From: a virus
Virus record (IMG/VR): IMGVR_UViG_3300042198_000073
Span: 1 to 21,508 of that record
Length of the DNA: 21,508 bases
Direction: 5' to 3' (one strand)
Shown here: piece after piece, positions 7,580-16,814 of the stretch
How the letters are laid out: the number at the start of each line of letters is the position of its first letter
Position numbering within the stretch: position 1 is the stretch's first letter
The notes under the pieces: model-generated
Databases searched by the model: none
Told to the model about the DNA's origin: nothing
What the model saw: only the letters and a program-made list of their open reading frames with translations
Made by a program: the position numbers and the translations under genes

Positions 7580-7951
7580 TTAAGGTTCGAAAACCTGGCG
7601 GAAGGTGGCCGTAATGGTATTCACATTGGCGTAACGCAGGTCACGCGACCAATTTTCAACAACCCACTTGTAGGCCGTTGCTTCGTCCAATGGCGTCCAA
7701 TCAAAGCTGGCATTGTCAGCAGCGCGTGCATCAAAGAACGCCTCAATGGCATCGGCGTCCGTGCTGTCCTTTGCCGTCCAAGTTAGATCCCAAACGCGTG
7801 GGTTTTGATTCAACCCGTAGGTCAGTCTTTGCTCGTAGCCATCACCAAACTGCACCTTGCGGACAGCAGGTTGGCTTTTGCGTGACGCACCGAAATCAGG
7901 CGTTGTACCGCCGGTGCTGGTGCCAACCGTTGCATCGTTGAACGTAGCCAT
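7580..7951 (-). CDS. M: Minor tail protein, lambda gpM family
   Basis: This 123-residue protein has the compact gpM pattern: KVQFGDGYEQRLTYGLNQNP around 33-52, WDLTWTAKD at about 54-62, a FFDARAADNASFDWTPL block, and C-terminal ITATFRQVFEP. gpM joins the tail tip complex next to gpH and gpL. The length equals the family norm (lambda gpM 109). The ATG overlaps the tape measure stop (TAATG), so expression is coupled to the tape measure protein. Nothing odd is seen. Confidence 0.92.
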   Translation of the reverse strand: MATFNDATVGTSTGGTTPDFGASRKSQPAVRKVQFGDGYEQRLTYGLNQNPRVWDLTWTAKDSTDADAIEAFFDARAADNASFDWTPLDEATAYKWVVENWSRDLRYANVNTITATFRQVFEP

Positions 7952-10446
7952 TAGGCGAGCAAGCCTCCAGGACGCTTCTGCTTGATCAGTTCTTGTTGAA
8001 CAGCAAGACCGATGACCTTGCCGAGTTGACCGGCTTGACCAGGATCGCCTTCAACATTAGAACCGCTGGCATCAACATTCACGTTGACGTTGACGCCACC
8101 AGCACCATTCTTCATCGTCACAGGGATTGTGCGACCGTCAGGAAGGGGCACGTAAGCCTCAGGGCGGCTACCTTCGCCAAACATGGCAAGCTGCGGGCTA
8201 GAGGCAATACCACCGGCTGCATAACGGCGAAGCTTGAGCGGACCGCTACCGGTCATGATGCCGCCCATGGCAAACCCAAAACCGCCAGTGAATGCCAAAG
8301 GATTAAAGCCAACGCCGCTGGCATTGAATTGAGAAACATTGGCAAGGGGTGAGCCAAGAGAAGATGCAGCCGCTGGACCAAAGCCAATTGCGCTCATGAT
8401 GCTCTTCAACACAAATTGCTGAATAATCATGCGGGTGGTGTATTCAAGAATCTGCACAGCAAATTCGCGGAAGTTATATGATCCATTGACCATCAACGAA
8501 ACAATTGAATCTTCAACGCCTTTGATACCGCGCAGACTAAGCTCAGCCATTGCGTTTCTAACGGTGCCAACGTTGTCGGCGTAACCACGCAGCCCATCAC
8601 CCAAACCAGCAATGGCATTGTTGTTGTATTCAAAAGCGCGAGTCATCGCATAGGTTTGATCCGTGATGGCAATAAATGTGTCGGACAAGCCTTGCCAGTA
8701 ATCACTCATCTTTTGCGCAGATTCACCTGCGGCAAGATTCATCTGACTTTCATTTAGGTCATCAATCGCTTGGACGAGAGGTGCAACGTTCAGATCGCCA
8801 CCAGCTTCTTTGTACGCCTTGGCAAGATCAAAAACCTGCTTAAGCAGTTGGTCAGTTTCTTTATTTGCCGAACGAACTGCTTTGGTGTAGTTATTTTCAA
8901 AAGCCTCAAAAGCACTGCCACCAAGTAGTCGAGTTTCCAGTGAGACATCCTCGGTTGTTTCTCGTATTTTTCTAAGAAATTGTTCGCTTTTGCGATAAAT
9001 ATCATTTCTTTGTTCAGCTAATCGCGCCTGCTGTTTTGCCGCTTTATCTGTTGCGGCTTGACTGGCAGCTCCACCACCAGCTTCACCGGCGCCAAAACCA
9101 GCACCTGCCGCCCCGCCACCAGCGCCTCCCTTGGGAATGCGCGAACGCTCTTCTCGCAATTCTTTTTGCAATTGCGTCAAAACGCCACGACGGCGTGCAG
9201 TCATGGAATCCGCTGGTCCGGCGACTAAAGCTGATTGGTCGCGAATTCTTCTTTCTAAATCTGCGATGCGTTCGGGATCATAAAATTTCATCCCAAAGAA
9301 ACGCGCTAACGCATTTGCAGCCCTGGTAATCGCAGCAACAATATCAGCAAAAATTGTTTGAAATGCCGCACCAATAGGGGCAAGAAGACGACCGACGCTT
9401 TCGCTTAGTTTGGACAGTGAAGCTTGCAGTCTGTCACCAGCGGATTGCGGTCCACGAGCAATAATTTCCGCGTTTTTGCCGTACTGCTTGAATAGTTCCT
9501 CTGCAAATTTCATAAAGTCTTGCAGGGTGACGCGACCGTCCTCAAGAGCCTTGTCCAACTCTTTAGGTGTCATGCCAATGCTCTTAGCAAACAACGTAAA
9601 TGCACCGGGTAGTCGCTCACCAATTTGCTGGCGCAGTTCTTCAGCCGATACCTTGCCTTTGCTGAACACCTGAGCAGTAGCGCGAAGAGCTGCATCAAGA
9701 TCTTCAAGACTGCCACCAGTGCCACGGATACCAGCAGCAATGCCAAGAAATGCTTTTTCAGCATTTTTTACGTTGCCACCAGCACCAATAACAGATGCCG
9801 ATAGCTGCGTAAATTGACGGGTGATAAGTTCTTGTGGAATAGCAAGTCGCTGACTTGTTTGATAAATAAAATCAAGACCTTGTTGGTACGACGCAGCATC
9901 TTGAGTGATTAATTTCAGAGCAATTCTTTGCTTTTCGATGCCAGCCGTATAACTTGCCAGACCAGCTACTTGCTGACCCATCATTCCAGCTTGAGCGCCA
10001 ATGGCACCACCGGCAGCCATGCCAGCAACGCCAAACGGTGCGCCAGCCAATGCGCCAACAGCACCTAGCGGACCGCCAAAGACGCCAGCAGCAGCAACAG
10101 TGCCCACGCCTTGGGCGATGCCCTTGAAGCGACCAGCATTGCCAGGCTGCAGTCGCTTGAGTTGCGCTTCTAGCTTCGCCGCCTCAGCATTTGCCTGTTT
10201 AAATTCATCGCTCGCAACATCAACACTATTTGCAATCTCACGCCAAGTATTTGCATAACCGCGAAGGTTGTTGATGCTTTGCGTTGAAGTTGCTTGAACC
10301 TTCCGCAGTTCTGAGGATAATTCTTTGAAATTTACGTTGGCAGCAGAAGTTTGCTGGGCAAGACTTTTTACGCTGCTTTGAAGCCGGGTGAGTTGTTGAT
10401 CACCTTGCTGCTTGATCCTGATTAGCAGTTCAGTGACTTGGCTCAT
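7951..10446 (-). CDS. H: Tape measure protein, lambda gpH type
   Basis: This 831-residue protein sets tail length. Residues 1-100 are a heptad-rich coiled coil. Residues 109-165 are Gly/Ala-rich and hydrophobic, a possible membrane-active segment. Residues 165-345 match the tape measure N-terminal domain, with the signature GKVSAEELRQQIGERLPGAF at 264-283. The middle is helical, with a Gly/Ala linker near 440-460. The C-terminal 140 residues resemble the gpH C-terminal domain (GGIMTGSGPLKLRRYAAGGI, then EAYVPLPDGRTIPV). Its length is close to lambda gpH (853), so a tail of roughly 120-135 nm is expected. The ATG overlaps the chaperone stop (ATGA), the usual position directly after the G/GT pair. 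Confidence 0.95.
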   Translation of the reverse strand: MSQVTELLIRIKQQGDQQLTRLQSSVKSLAQQTSAANVNFKELSSELRKVQATSTQSINNLRGYANTWREIANSVDVASDEFKQANAEAAKLEAQLKRLQPGNAGRFKGIAQGVGTVAAAGVFGGPLGAVGALAGAPFGVAGMAAGGAIGAQAGMMGQQVAGLASYTAGIEKQRIALKLITQDAASYQQGLDFIYQTSQRLAIPQELITRQFTQLSASVIGAGGNVKNAEKAFLGIAAGIRGTGGSLEDLDAALRATAQVFSKGKVSAEELRQQIGERLPGAFTLFAKSIGMTPKELDKALEDGRVTLQDFMKFAEELFKQYGKNAEIIARGPQSAGDRLQASLSKLSESVGRLLAPIGAAFQTIFADIVAAITRAANALARFFGMKFYDPERIADLERRIRDQSALVAGPADSMTARRRGVLTQLQKELREERSRIPKGGAGGGAAGAGFGAGEAGGGAASQAATDKAAKQQARLAEQRNDIYRKSEQFLRKIRETTEDVSLETRLLGGSAFEAFENNYTKAVRSANKETDQLLKQVFDLAKAYKEAGGDLNVAPLVQAIDDLNESQMNLAAGESAQKMSDYWQGLSDTFIAITDQTYAMTRAFEYNNNAIAGLGDGLRGYADNVGTVRNAMAELSLRGIKGVEDSIVSLMVNGSYNFREFAVQILEYTTRMIIQQFVLKSIMSAIGFGPAAASSLGSPLANVSQFNASGVGFNPLAFTGGFGFAMGGIMTGSGPLKLRRYAAGGIASSPQLAMFGEGSRPEAYVPLPDGRTIPVTMKNGAGGVNVNVNVDASGSNVEGDPGQAGQLGKVIGLAVQQELIKQKRPGGLLA

Positions 10447-10784
10447 TTGCGGCTCGCATTCAAAACGGCAAGGGCAGCCATTTCCATCACCTGCACGCCT
10501 TCAAAGATGGCAACAGGATCCTTGACTGAATACAGCTTACAGAGCCATTCAAGACTCGGGTAGTTCAGACCGGTCAAACCCGCCATGCTCGTGTGCCACT
10601 GCGTAGACATGCGGATGAACATCAACACGATGTCCCAGTTCTCTTCCCAGATTTCGCAGTCATCCGGCTTTGTGCTGGCAAGCGCAGCAGCAATCTGCTC
10701 AGGACTTGCACCCAAAGCCTTAAGATCAGCCTCACGCTCGTCAACAACGCCGCCTTTTGCCCAGTATTCGGCGGCGGCTTTTAG
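10443..10784 (-). CDS. Tail assembly chaperone extension (gpT part of gpGT), reached by -1 frameshift
   Basis: The open frame continues without interruption from the slippery site (first shifted codon CTA at 10784) to the TGA at 10443 and adds 113 residues, giving a 221-residue G-T fusion. The shifted segment starts LKAAAEYWAKGG and contains a helical domain with IWEENWDIVLMFIRMSTQWH and MAGLTGLNYPSLEWLC, a pattern I recall from DUF1799-type phage tail proteins. There is no good independent start. The only upstream candidate is a TTG at 10715 without a ribosome binding site, so the frameshift is the likely route. The domain should recruit tail tube subunits to the tape measure. It overlaps the tape measure ATG by 4 bases. 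Confidence 0.88.
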   Translation of the reverse strand, partial: LKAAAEYWAKGGVVDEREADLKALGASPEQIAAALASTKPDDCEIWEENWDIVLMFIRMSTQWHTSMAGLTGLNYPSLEWLCKLYSVKDPVAIFEGVQVMEMAALAVLNASRK

Positions 10785-10790
10785 TTTTTT
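10748..10790 (-). promoter_or_regulatory. Programmed -1 frameshift site: slippery A AAA AAC plus hairpin
   Basis: In the G reading frame the last codons are GCA AAA AAC TAA. The heptamer A AAA AAC (10790-10784) fits X XXY YYZ and sits directly before the stop. Seven bases after it begins a 7-bp stem, CGCCGCC (10776-10770) with GGCGGCG (10754-10748), closing a 15-base loop. Slip site, spacer and stem all have the usual geometry. Shifting by -1 enters exactly the frame of the downstream T domain. Confidence 0.9.
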
Positions 10791-11107
10791 GCGGGCGCTC
10801 CCGTCACGCTGTCGGCATACGCCTGAATCAGCGCCTTCATCACATACGGGTCATCACACAGTTCTTTTTTGTTCTTCTGCGTGAAGGGCACATCCTTGCC
10901 TTCTTCATCCTTGATCCCCTCCCAACCTTCAAGGATCCCATCAACAAGAGCGTCATCACCCTTGTCAATGAGATCGTTGAAAGCCGAGCGACTCATCTTC
11001 TTGAAGACCGCTTCGAACGTTTGAGTCTCAAAGCGATTCCCGTCAACCGGGATTTCAACCTTGACTTCCCACTTGTAGGAAGCAGTCTTCTTGAGGACGA
11101 AAGCCAT
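10781..11107 (-). CDS. Tail assembly chaperone, gpG-like
   Basis: This small, charged, soluble 108-residue protein begins with a beta-rich segment (MAFVLKKTASYKWEVKVEIPVDG, split here as MAFVLKKTASYKWEV and KVEIPVDG) and continues with helices containing FKKMSRSAFNDLIDKGDD. It sits between the tail tube and tape measure genes, where nearly all siphophages encode the chaperone pair. It ends at TAA directly after the slippery A AAA AAC, so a fraction of ribosomes should produce the longer GT form. G and GT are known to coat the tape measure protein before tube polymerisation and are absent from finished tails. No clear Shine-Dalgarno precedes the ATG, which is 6 bases after the tail tube stop, so coupling is likely. 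Confidence 0.9.
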   Translation of the reverse strand: MAFVLKKTASYKWEVKVEIPVDGNRFETQTFEAVFKKMSRSAFNDLIDKGDDALVDGILEGWEGIKDEEGKDVPFTQKNKKELCDDPYVMKALIQAYADSVTGAPAKN

Positions 11108-11113
11108 GAAGGA

Positions 11114-12055
11114 TCAGGTGAAGACCAGAGACATCTCGTTGTTGCCAGCCGTCGTAGGCAGAGCCAGGTACGGCATCGACAGGGAGATTACTCCATTAGT
11201 ATCACCATAGCTGCAACCGGTGATATCGGTTTGAGCAGCGTTCATGGTCACGATGTTGCCGGCAGTAGCGCCCAGTACGACGCTGGTGTTGCCAGTGGCG
11301 ACCGCGACAGCCTTGGCGAAGAAGTCCGTGGTGCCAATCGCAGGAGCCTCAAGCACGCAAGTGCCGCCTGGGGCGCGGTTGGTGATCAGAACCTCTTTGT
11401 TCGAGGCAGTCTCCTTGTACAGCAGCTCGTTGTTCAGAGCCAGATCAATGGACTCGATGCGGCTGCTGGTGACGCCGTGGAAGGTCGCGGTGGTGACGTT
11501 GGTGTCGTTCACCTCGATGGCTGCAGCTTGGTTGGCAACGGTAAAGCTGCCGCTCAGTGCAGTGCCATCAGGGGCGTTGTAGATGCCGATGAACTGGAAG
11601 CTGGCGACAGCAAATTGACCAGCAGTCAGGTTGAAGCTGACAGTGCCGCGAGCACCGGTGATCTTGTGCTGGGTACCGTCGTAGAAGCAGTAGATGGTGG
11701 CGGAGCTGAAGCTGCTGCTCACCGGGGCGTAGGTCACCGAGGTGGAAGAAACAATCGTCTCGCTCAGGCCGCAGGACTTCAGCAGCGGACCGAAGGCAGG
11801 AGCGGTGCCAGCAGTGCCAGAACCAGCCAGCTCAACATCAAAGGTCACGCTGACGCGCTTGTTGGCAACCAGGGTGCCACGGGTGCTGTTACCAAGGAAG
11901 CCTTGATAAGAAGCCGCTTGAACGTTGTCCGACTCAATCGGAGTTACTTCAAGGTTGGTAACTTGAACCGCGTCAGAACCGCCGACAGGACTAGGGTCAG
12001 TCCCATAGGTTGACTCAATCTTCGCGATCAGAAACTTCTTCCGAGTCAGTGCCAT
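11114..12055 (-). CDS. Major tail (tail tube) protein
   Basis: This 313-residue protein polymerises into the tail tube. It has the beta-rich pattern of siphophage tube proteins: MALTRKKFLIAKIESTYGTD at the start, a strand-rich middle with VTFDVELAGSG and FNLTAGQFAVASFQFIGIY, and a C-terminal ISLSMPYLAL block. Low charge and high Thr/Ser/Ala/Val suit a major structural protein. Position between the tail terminator and the chaperone gene is the lambda V position, although sequence resemblance to lambda gpV itself is not evident. It is closer to the larger tail tube families. The first 41 bases overlap the end of a small upstream frame. No strong ribosome binding site is seen. Confidence 0.88.
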   Translation of the reverse strand: MALTRKKFLIAKIESTYGTDPSPVGGSDAVQVTNLEVTPIESDNVQAASYQGFLGNSTRGTLVANKRVSVTFDVELAGSGTAGTAPAFGPLLKSCGLSETIVSSTSVTYAPVSSSFSSATIYCFYDGTQHKITGARGTVSFNLTAGQFAVASFQFIGIYNAPDGTALSGSFTVANQAAAIEVNDTNVTTATFHGVTSSRIESIDLALNNELLYKETASNKEVLITNRAPGGTCVLEAPAIGTTDFFAKAVAVATGNTSVVLGATAGNIVTMNAAQTDITGCSYGDTNGVISLSMPYLALPTTAGNNEMSLVFT

Positions 12056-14150: not shown

Positions 14151-15386
14151 TCAGGACAGCTTGCAGATGGACTCAGGATGACGCACGGCCACGTCATAGT
14201 CCTGCATGGCCACCACACGCACGGTGCCGGAAGCGGAACCGGTGTAGGGGTCAACCATGATGTCCAGACCGCTCCAGAAGCCGATCAGGATGTCGCTGAA
14301 GTTAGCGAACACCGCAGTGTTGTTCGGCATGGAGTTGGACACGTAAGCCGGGTAACCGTTGATGGTGTTGTCGGCTTCGTAGATGAAGTTGGCGTTGGTG
14401 CCGGTGGCCGACTTCTCGGTGGTCTTCAGAGTGCCGCGCAGAGCGGAATTCATCAGATAGCCGAGGCTGCCCAGCAGGGCGTTATCGGTGCTAAGAGCGG
14501 CTTCAGCGTTCACGTAATCAGCGAACGTGGTGTAGCCGGACTCAGTGTTGATACCGGTCACGTTCAGGAAGCCCAGCGGATACGAAGCAGAGCCGGTGCC
14601 GTTGATGGCTTGGTTCTCAACTTCGATAGCAATCTGTTGAGCCAGATCGCGACGCACCAGGTTCTCGATGTCGATGCTGGACTGAAGCAGCAGACGACGC
14701 GAGTAATCAGTCAACGCACCAATCGTGCGGGGCTGCATCGTCACTTGGTCGACGGTGAGCTGGGACTCGTTGATCGAGCCGGACTCAGCGACGTGGTACA
14801 CAGTGGCACCACCAGACTGACGGGGCAGAGCAACCATGCCTTGCAGGCCGGTCATCACGGTCGCGCCAGCGGTCTGCATCACAAGAGCCTTGCGGAGCAG
14901 ATCGATGAAGCTGTCGCTCATCAGGTCGGTGGCAACCAGATCACCACCACCGGAGGCAGAACCCACGGTCAGGTCACGGCGGCCATAACCCAGCACATCA
15001 GCGGGGATCAGGATGCCACGGGCTTCCTTGCCAGACTTCTGCTGAGCAGCACGGCTGACTTCCATTTCGAAAGCAGCAGCACGCTGAGCTTCTTGGCTGT
15101 TGGGGTGAGCCAGAGCGTTGATGGCGCGGATGAAGGAGAAGTCACGCTTCTCTTTGTCCGACATGCCGATCTCGGCATCCTTGGGGTTCAGGGGCTTCTC
15201 TTCCACACCCATCTTTTCCAGAAGGGCAGAGCGAAGCTCATCAAGGCTGCGGGAGTTGGCGATGAACTCCTGAGCCAGTTCAATGTTCTTGGTGCGTTGA
15301 CCAAGAGCGATCATGTCGGCCATTTCCTTAGCCTTGGCCTGAGCGGCCTCAGCGCGGATAGCCTCAACATTGAGGTTTTGATCCAC
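14151..15386 (-). CDS. Major capsid protein with delta/scaffold domain, from internal GTG start (411 aa)
   Basis: Inside the 887-residue frame, GTG 15386-15384 (codon 477) is preceded by GGAG (15398-15395) at 8 bases. It falls exactly at the boundary between the protease domain and the helical delta region (DQNLNVEAIRAEAAQAKAK). The resulting 411-residue protein has the usual length of an HK97-type capsid precursor. Its first 120 residues would act as internal scaffold and be removed by the protease. An in-frame nested start would supply many capsid subunits and few protease copies, which the capsid stoichiometry requires. This is inferred from the ribosome binding site and domain boundary and is not demonstrated. 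Confidence 0.7.
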   Translation of the reverse strand: MDQNLNVEAIRAEAAQAKAKEMADMIALGQRTKNIELAQEFIANSRSLDELRSALLEKMGVEEKPLNPKDAEIGMSDKEKRDFSFIRAINALAHPNSQEAQRAAAFEMEVSRAAQQKSGKEARGILIPADVLGYGRRDLTVGSASGGGDLVATDLMSDSFIDLLRKALVMQTAGATVMTGLQGMVALPRQSGGATVYHVAESGSINESQLTVDQVTMQPRTIGALTDYSRRLLLQSSIDIENLVRRDLAQQIAIEVENQAINGTGSASYPLGFLNVTGINTESGYTTFADYVNAEAALSTDNALLGSLGYLMNSALRGTLKTTEKSATGTNANFIYEADNTINGYPAYVSNSMPNNTAVFANFSDILIGFWSGLDIMVDPYTGSASGTVRVVAMQDYDVAVRHPESICKLS

Positions 15387-16814
15387 GGTTGTAACTCCGT
15401 TGGGTTGACTGTGAACGGCTGAGGCCGTATCGACGTTCTCATTATGGGAGAAAGAACGTCCGATTCCAACCGAGTTATCAGCCGGCACGGTGACCAGGCT
15501 TATTTCAAACGGTTGGAAACTGGTAGCGCGATAAGTCACAGGTGATGTGGACTCATCGGCTTCCATCGAGTTGATCTTGTAGCCGAAGCTGACATTGCGG
15601 ATGATTCCATCCTTGATCAACTCTTGCATCTCGCGACCGAGTTCGTTGTTCGCGAGTTTTACGCGTGCATAGGCACGCTTGTTTTTGATATAAGCCTTCT
15701 GCACAACACCGACGATCTTGTCTGCATCGTGTTGGTAAAGCAGAGGCGCACCATCATTGAGACGGGTGAGATCCATGGACTTGTCATCCATGCTCAACAC
15801 TTCCATGCCGTAATAACGCTCAACCGGCGCTTCACTGGCAAATGGGAACTCCAGAGTGCGATCTTCTGAATCAGCGCGGAACTCAGTGGCGAGTGAGCGC
15901 TTCAGCGTCTCGCCTTCAAAGAAACGCAACGCAGCAATCTTGCGCAGTTCAGAGAACTTATGACCAACCAAAGTCTCGGTCTCTTTGTAATCACCTTCGC
16001 TGTCTTTGCGGTACACGCGAATCAATGCAGCGGGATCTTCTTCAGATGCGTTAATGCTAAACGAAGAATCAGGAACACCAAGTACACCTTCACGCATCAC
16101 GTGTTCAACTTTCCCGCGTGCGGTGCCACCACTTGAATCCCATTCCACGAAATCACCGACTTTAACCGCATCAGGAGCAGCACGCTCTTCGCTGCGTTCA
16201 CCAGTGGCTTCTTCAAACATCATCGGGTCAAAGTCGTGATCCACCAGCCATTCACGAGCCTCGCCGGGCGTGAAGCGATCAGCATCAAAACGGATGGCTT
16301 GCAGCTCAGAGGTGCCATCCTTGATCCCGTAAATAGCATCAATGCCAGCGCCGAATTCATCGTTGACGCGGCGGATGCTGTCGTACTGATCAGGATCAGT
16401 CAGGCGAGCGGCATGCTCATTCGGATAGGGGCGTCCATCGACGATCTCTTCGTTGATTTCCATGGCACGCTCCTGTGCTTTTTTGATGGCTTTGGATTTC
16501 ATGTTGCTCCAGGTTTGACCTGAATCACCGCCCCATGCTGCCCATGCTACGCGACCCGGAGAAGGATAGTCATCACCATCAGGGCGGAAGCCCTTGCCCT
16601 GCTTGTCAACCTCATGGCGTGCAAACCATGCGGCCATCGTGATGACAGTGTCGGGACTCAATTCATCACCCGACAGGATCTGACTGGCACGGGTTGCAGC
16701 AACATCAGTGCCACCGGGGCGACCATCTTTCTTCCATGCGCGATAACGACGCGCTTCGGCCTTCATGCCTTCTGTTGGCATCAGGTCGATTGTTTTGTCA
16801 CCAACCTTTGCCAT
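14151..16814 (-). CDS. Prohead protease-scaffold-major capsid fusion polyprotein (887 aa)
   Basis: One uninterrupted frame joins head maturation and shell functions. Residues 1-115 form a small domain with GRVAWAAWGGDSG at 87-99. Residues 118-205 carry PYPNEHAARLTDP and IRFDADRFTPGEAREWL, a module I recall beside phage proteases. Residues 216-295 look like a tudor/SH3-type domain (VKVGDFVEWDSSGGTARGKV). Residues 305-455 are an S78 HK97-type prohead protease with likely triad His362 (LLYQHDADKIVGVV), Ser409 (IRNVSFGYK) and Glu437 (PFEISLVTVPAD). Residues 477-600 resemble a helical delta/scaffold segment, and 600-887 the HK97-fold capsid protein (ILIPADVLG, then LTDYSRRLLLQSSIDIENLV). GAGGA lies about 9 bases before the ATG. 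In most relatives protease and capsid are separate genes. Confidence 0.9.
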   Translation of the reverse strand: MAKVGDKTIDLMPTEGMKAEARRYRAWKKDGRPGGTDVAATRASQILSGDELSPDTVITMAAWFARHEVDKQGKGFRPDGDDYPSPGRVAWAAWGGDSGQTWSNMKSKAIKKAQERAMEINEEIVDGRPYPNEHAARLTDPDQYDSIRRVNDEFGAGIDAIYGIKDGTSELQAIRFDADRFTPGEAREWLVDHDFDPMMFEEATGERSEERAAPDAVKVGDFVEWDSSGGTARGKVEHVMREGVLGVPDSSFSINASEEDPAALIRVYRKDSEGDYKETETLVGHKFSELRKIAALRFFEGETLKRSLATEFRADSEDRTLEFPFASEAPVERYYGMEVLSMDDKSMDLTRLNDGAPLLYQHDADKIVGVVQKAYIKNKRAYARVKLANNELGREMQELIKDGIIRNVSFGYKINSMEADESTSPVTYRATSFQPFEISLVTVPADNSVGIGRSFSHNENVDTASAVHSQPNGVTTVDQNLNVEAIRAEAAQAKAKEMADMIALGQRTKNIELAQEFIANSRSLDELRSALLEKMGVEEKPLNPKDAEIGMSDKEKRDFSFIRAINALAHPNSQEAQRAAAFEMEVSRAAQQKSGKEARGILIPADVLGYGRRDLTVGSASGGGDLVATDLMSDSFIDLLRKALVMQTAGATVMTGLQGMVALPRQSGGATVYHVAESGSINESQLTVDQVTMQPRTIGALTDYSRRLLLQSSIDIENLVRRDLAQQIAIEVENQAINGTGSASYPLGFLNVTGINTESGYTTFADYVNAEAALSTDNALLGSLGYLMNSALRGTLKTTEKSATGTNANFIYEADNTINGYPAYVSNSMPNNTAVFANFSDILIGFWSGLDIMVDPYTGSASGTVRVVAMQDYDVAVRHPESICKLS
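15384..15398 (-). promoter_or_regulatory. Internal ribosome binding site and GTG start within protease-capsid frame
   Basis: GGAG at 15398-15395, an 8-base spacer, then GTG at 15386-15384. It lies in the low-complexity linker between protease and scaffold segments, and the spacing is ideal for initiation. Confidence 0.65.

Follow-up and report, generated by a model that had tools for sequence, protein, structure and literature searches.

In phage lambda, the tail assembly chaperone genes G and T are linked by a -1 frameshift that gives rise to the fusion protein GT (Levin 1993; Xu 2004, 2013, as cited in PMC5009743). A review (PMC5009743) describes lambda-type G as a coat on the tape measure and assigns binding of the tail tube protein to the T domain. 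The slippery heptamer A AAA AAC has been reported in the tail chaperone genes of the Caulobacter phage phiCbK (gp93/gp94; PMC3556154) and of the haloarchaeal HCTV-2 (PMC5009743), possibly in that of the Paenibacillus phage Dragolir (PMC6003738), and in gp12-gp13 of the Acinetobacter phage Loki, where it adjoins the stop codon (PMC5313236). Ribosomes of E. coli shift far less readily on A AAA AAC than on A AAA AAG (PMC5009743), a point that counts against slippage in the phage considered here and makes its rate in the host hard to predict.

We analysed a 21,508-nucleotide stretch of viral DNA (IMG/VR record IMGVR_UViG_3300042198_000073, positions 1 to 21,508; hereafter, the window), for which a preliminary description had proposed a frameshift of the same sort. 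Judging from sequence comparisons across a large set of relatives, the locus is almost certainly a site of programmed -1 ribosomal frameshifting like that of lambda G/GT, by which one gene would yield two tail assembly chaperones. As A AAA AAC beside the G stop had already been described, this frameshift belongs to a known kind.

Results

Gene order and protein families of the tail locus

On its minus strand, the window carries a run of tail genes, tail tube first, then G, T and tape measure:

11114-12055, minus strand: tail tube protein of 313 aa, encoded ahead of G (PF18906 Phage_tube_2)
10781-11107, minus strand: gene G, upstream tail assembly chaperone, 108-aa open reading frame, stop TAA at 10783-10781
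10443-10784, minus strand: T domain, 113 aa after the slip, in the -1 frame, stop TGA at 10445-10443
7951-10446, minus strand: tape measure protein, 831 aa (PF20155, PF09718), its ATG overlapping the GT stop

The upstream protein G falls in a tail assembly chaperone family, with matches to PF08748 Phage_TAC_4 (27.5 bits, cutoff 21.1), phrog_569 (7e-21) and phrog_313, and its orthologues in viral contigs share 74-100% identity with it. T matches PF08809 DUF1799 (53.3 bits, cutoff 26) and also phrog_680. By these profile matches, G and T are assigned to tail-chaperone-type families, and their place, with the tail-tube gene on one side and the tape-measure gene on the other, is that of lambda. 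Structure searches with AlphaFold2 models of G (pLDDT 72) and T (pLDDT 88) returned no convincing PDB match, and no tRNA genes were found in the 21.5-kb window.

Elsewhere in the window, a single 887-aa protein (14151-16814, minus strand) consists of a prohead protease (Peptidase_S78) fused to the major capsid protein, with an extra N-terminal part that carries a phrog_2859 match and a TUDOR-like Hva1 domain.

Anatomy of the slip site

The 3' end of G reads GCG CCC GCA AAA AAC TAA, and three elements can be recognised at and beyond it:

10784-10790, minus strand: slippery heptamer A AAA AAC, in phase GCA AAA AAC
10781-10783, minus strand: G stop codon TAA, adjoining the heptamer
10748-10776, minus strand: downstream hairpin, presumed stimulatory, with a 7-bp stem CGCCGCC/GGCGGCG and a 15-nt loop

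The preliminary description had placed the heptamer directly before the G stop, and so it is (A AAA AAC at 10790-10784, TAA at 10783-10781); AAAAAAC occurs on the minus strand of the window at this site only. The 7-bp GC-only stem with a 15-nt loop that had been proposed 7 bases past the heptamer is also present (CGCCGCC at 10776-10770, GGCGGCG at 10754-10748). The claim that the -1 frame is open through T to the tape measure start holds as well, this frame running for 113 codons from the slip site to the TGA at 10445-10443, which overlaps the tape-measure ATG at 10446-10444. Translation through the slip gives the proposed sizes, that is 108 residues for G and 108 + 113 = 221 for GT. For the junction peptide, either AKN or AKK had been allowed before LKAAAEYW. 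As tandem slippage retains Asn, the prediction is narrowed to AKN-LKAAAEYW, and AKK is dropped.

The GCC repeat downstream of the heptamer can also pair in an alternative register of 6 bp + 3 bp (10778-10749), which starts 5 nt after the heptamer and is favoured by RNAfold (-17.2 kcal/mol, against -14.6 for the 7-bp register); relatives unable to form the 6+3-bp register still retain the 7-bp one. Compared with dinucleotide shuffles, the fold of the window's own sequence at this site is not exceptional by itself (z -1.2 to -1.6); the case is carried by comparative evidence.

Conservation of the heptamer, the stop and the downstream hairpin

Conservation of the heptamer and stem in relatives had been set beforehand as the test on which the frameshift might fail. 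Homologous loci were gathered from viral contigs, using T, G and distant T queries, and from named phages; both elements proved to be conserved, and the claim stands. Each of the 92 distinct close relatives in which both genes are present carries AAAAAAC followed by TAA, TGA or TAG. In a wider set of 254 distinct relatives, nearly all of them viral contigs, the heptamer is A AAA AAC in 251, G GGA AAC in two and A AAA AAA in one. It stands exactly at the start of T homology in 253 of these 254, and is directly followed by the G stop (TAA, TGA or TAG) in 237, nearly all the others having the stop one codon later (+3). The site is AAA AAC in 239 of 242 G genes; elsewhere in those same genes, lysine is encoded by AAG 1571 times vs 875 for AAA, and asparagine by AAT half the time (321 vs 330). 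Among Pseudomonadota genome loci of the T family with G in a -1 arrangement, which partly overlap the set of 254, all 26 have either A AAA AAC (20) or G GGA AAC (6), located at the stop of G or close to it.

Genome scans returned four named MAG contigs with the T alignment and no relatives with the G alignment. The genome locus L521, with a near-match at the slip site, was considered as a close relative and rejected, its G protein being clearly divergent and devoid of the hairpin inside G presented below. Two further loci (L110:1721-2388 and L244) have a G that is 92% identical to that of the window and a T that is only 54-55% identical; from this pattern of identity, they read as mosaics with a joint at or near the slip site.

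For the downstream hairpin, we counted stems of 5 bp or more, including 4 or more GC pairs, that start 4-8 nt past the heptamer, in representatives of 88 clusters defined at 85% identity. Such a stem is found in 84 of the 88 representatives, against 16.2 expected from dinucleotide shuffles, and comprises 56 distinct stem sequences. When compared with synonymous recodings of the same T protein, the 48 nt past the slip gave a mean z of -1.74, negative in 86 of 88 clusters, against -0.27 to +0.03 at three control positions in T, and the 45 nt past the slip have the highest mean stability across G-T. Within the close clade, the 7-bp stem is paired in 95.7% of cells, and no pairs changed on both sides were found. 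Moreover, its arms encode conserved Ala-Ala and Gly-Gly, so that part of its conservation lies at the protein level. Because double-side changes are missing from the close clade, the evidence for selection at the RNA level consists of the recoding test and the between-clade comparison. As judged from these two, the downstream hairpin is under selection beyond the protein sequence.

Expression of the T frame

T might be a separate gene, with TTG 10715 as its start codon or translated by reinitiation past the G stop, and no frameshift would then be involved. It does appear in the mechanical list of open reading frames as a 90-aa frame starting at TTG 10715, and the deposited annotations of the Synechococcus phages S-CBS1, S-CBS3 and S-LBS1 also present two separate CDS, the second being truncated. 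However, both the homology and the conserved residues LKxAAEYW start at the slip site, 23 codons ahead of that TTG. In addition, the T frame of 80 of the 88 cluster representatives lacks any ATG, GTG or TTG from the upstream stop to residue 8, which makes an own start for T unlikely, and a separate gene would leave the invariant heptamer and hairpin unexplained. We therefore consider this reading very improbable, and take the three annotations as instances of what the preliminary description had anticipated, namely that gene callers miss the fusion.

The frame could also be changed before translation, if RNA polymerase slipped on the run of A and produced a mixed pool of mRNAs. A stretch of six A's is close to the shortest on which polymerases can slip, and the protein products would be identical. 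It is made unlikely by the relatives in which G GGA AAC, a tandem-tRNA-slip motif and a poor polymerase-slip site, replaces A AAA AAC, and the position-specific downstream hairpin fits ribosomal stimulation. The chance that the polymerase is responsible seems slighter still than that of a separate T gene, and slippage by the ribosome is the reading that we retain.

In the GenBank records of S-CBS1, S-CBS3 and S-LBS1, the G/GT fusion is unannotated, and G of S-LBS1 is labelled as an ABC-transporter ATPase.

A 29-bp hairpin inside gene G

The scan for structure turned up another strong signal, some 200 nt ahead of the slip:

10923-10986, minus strand: 29-bp RNA hairpin inside G, with one internal mismatch, arms at 10986-10957 and 10952-10923

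With -39.0 kcal/mol, this mid-G hairpin is the most stable 66-mer on either strand of the 21.5-kb window (mean -16, s.d. 4.6-4.8). Its z is -4.08 against synonymous recodings, a null that ignores other codon constraints. With 8 G-U pairs among its 29, the hairpin loses much of its stability on the antisense strand (-18.5 kcal/mol); it is thus stable on the mRNA strand only, and by this asymmetry looks like an RNA element and not a DNA palindrome.

Across 113 distinct sequences of the clade, 88.6% of the cells of the mid-G hairpin pair, and double-side changes are seen at 12 of its 29 pairs. These sequences share ancestry, and the number of cells with double-side changes (112) compares with 33 +/- 6.4 in shuffled and 19-65 in slid controls, while the covariation score is 0.286 against at most 0.112 for slid pairings. 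By parsimony counts on the tree, pairing is preserved through a double change on 11 branches, compared with 2.2 +/- 1.6 branches (maximum 7) when pairings are random and no more than 6 when they are slid. This covariation is the strongest such signal in the 2.8 kb around the slip. The RNAalifold consensus retains only the inner 12 pairs, indicating that the outer part of the hairpin is less uniform.

The best-window z in 19 other G genes ranges from -1.3 to -4.1, at scattered positions and with the multiple testing that this entails; what makes the mid-G hairpin credible is the combination of its rank in the window, its strand specificity and its covariation. It has no match above the gathering threshold in Rfam, where the search gave sub-threshold hits only, one of them overlapping (RF02191, 22.5 vs 60 bits), it was not seen in the other PF08809-linked G genes tested, and we found no description of it in the open-access literature. 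The structure minimum of lambda G (z -3.54) was considered as a counterpart and set aside, as it lies within the multiple-testing range of the 19 other G genes; the lambda relatives from IMG/VR are 96-100% identical and so cannot show covariation. Weaker signals of stable structure occur at about 11033-11188 on the minus strand (clade mean z -1.3 to -1.5 vs synonymous recoding), with offsets of -315 and -405 from the slip, that is at the start of G and at the end of the tail tube gene.

Discussion

We infer from the locus that slippage occurs, how frequent it is and what G and GT do, as follows. Most ribosomes would terminate at the TAA, with the 108-residue G as their product. A smaller share, held up by the downstream hairpin while AAA-AAC occupies the P and A sites, would slip back by one base onto AAA-AAA, bypass the stop and go on to complete the 221-residue GT. 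By analogy with lambda, a coat of many G and few GT copies may form on the tape measure protein, with tail-tube subunits recruited through the T domain. In frameshifts of this kind, GT is expected at a few per cent of G, both proteins are expected to be required for assembly of the tail and to be missing from virions, and a downstream stimulatory RNA structure is common without being obligatory.

The set of relatives assembled here adds large and uniform conservation to what had been described; as a rule, the heptamer is A AAA AAC or G GGA AAC and in most cases adjoins the stop. These heptamers end in AAC, unlike the AAG favoured in E. coli, which should be helpful to prediction tools. In the annotation of the named relatives, G and T are listed separately and GT is absent.

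Tentatively, and with slightly less than even confidence, we propose that the mid-G hairpin is a cis-acting mRNA element, not described before, in the tail chaperone genes of a mostly environmental phage clade, with a role in pacing or in processing/stability. As it lies 132 nt (44 codons) upstream of the heptamer, it is probably too far to touch the slipping ribosome. It could instead slow or space ribosomes 44 codons ahead of the slip, so that the stimulatory hairpin would refold between one ribosome and the next, and such spacing could steady the G:GT ratio. Alternatively, the mid-G hairpin may serve to process, protect or stabilise the mRNA of the tail operon, for instance as a target of RNase III. 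As an RNA structure under selection within a coding region, it is directly testable.

Comparison with known systems

The locus shares with lambda the order tail tube - G - T - tape measure, a heptamer of the X XXY YYZ type towards the 3' end of G, and a -1 fusion to T, which is a minority product in lambda and is predicted here. Its heptamer differs, being A AAA AAC where lambda has G GGA AAG. This contrast had been drawn in the preliminary description and is correct, although A AAA AAC in tail-chaperone genes was already published. The G stop adjoins the heptamer in this phage, whereas in lambda it comes several codons later (heptamer at nt 399-405 of the 423-nt G), and the conserved downstream hairpin is also a difference from lambda.

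Loki, phiCbK and HCTV-2 resemble this phage in having A AAA AAC in their tail chaperone genes, a likeness drawn at the level of the heptamer, and Loki further resembles it in that the heptamer is directly beside the stop. The Rhodobacter phage RcWaterboi and the Rhodovulum phage RS1 have the same G-T arrangement and -1 slip, with a TGA directly past the heptamer, but their heptamer is G GGA AAC.

The closest named relatives of G are in S-CBS1, S-CBS3 and S-LBS1 (26-35% identity), and those of T in S-CBS1 and S-LBS1 (33-35%). The mid-G hairpin is absent in the same form from these three Synechococcus phages. All of them carry A AAA AAC TGA with a downstream stem, where this phage has A AAA AAC TAA with its own stem.
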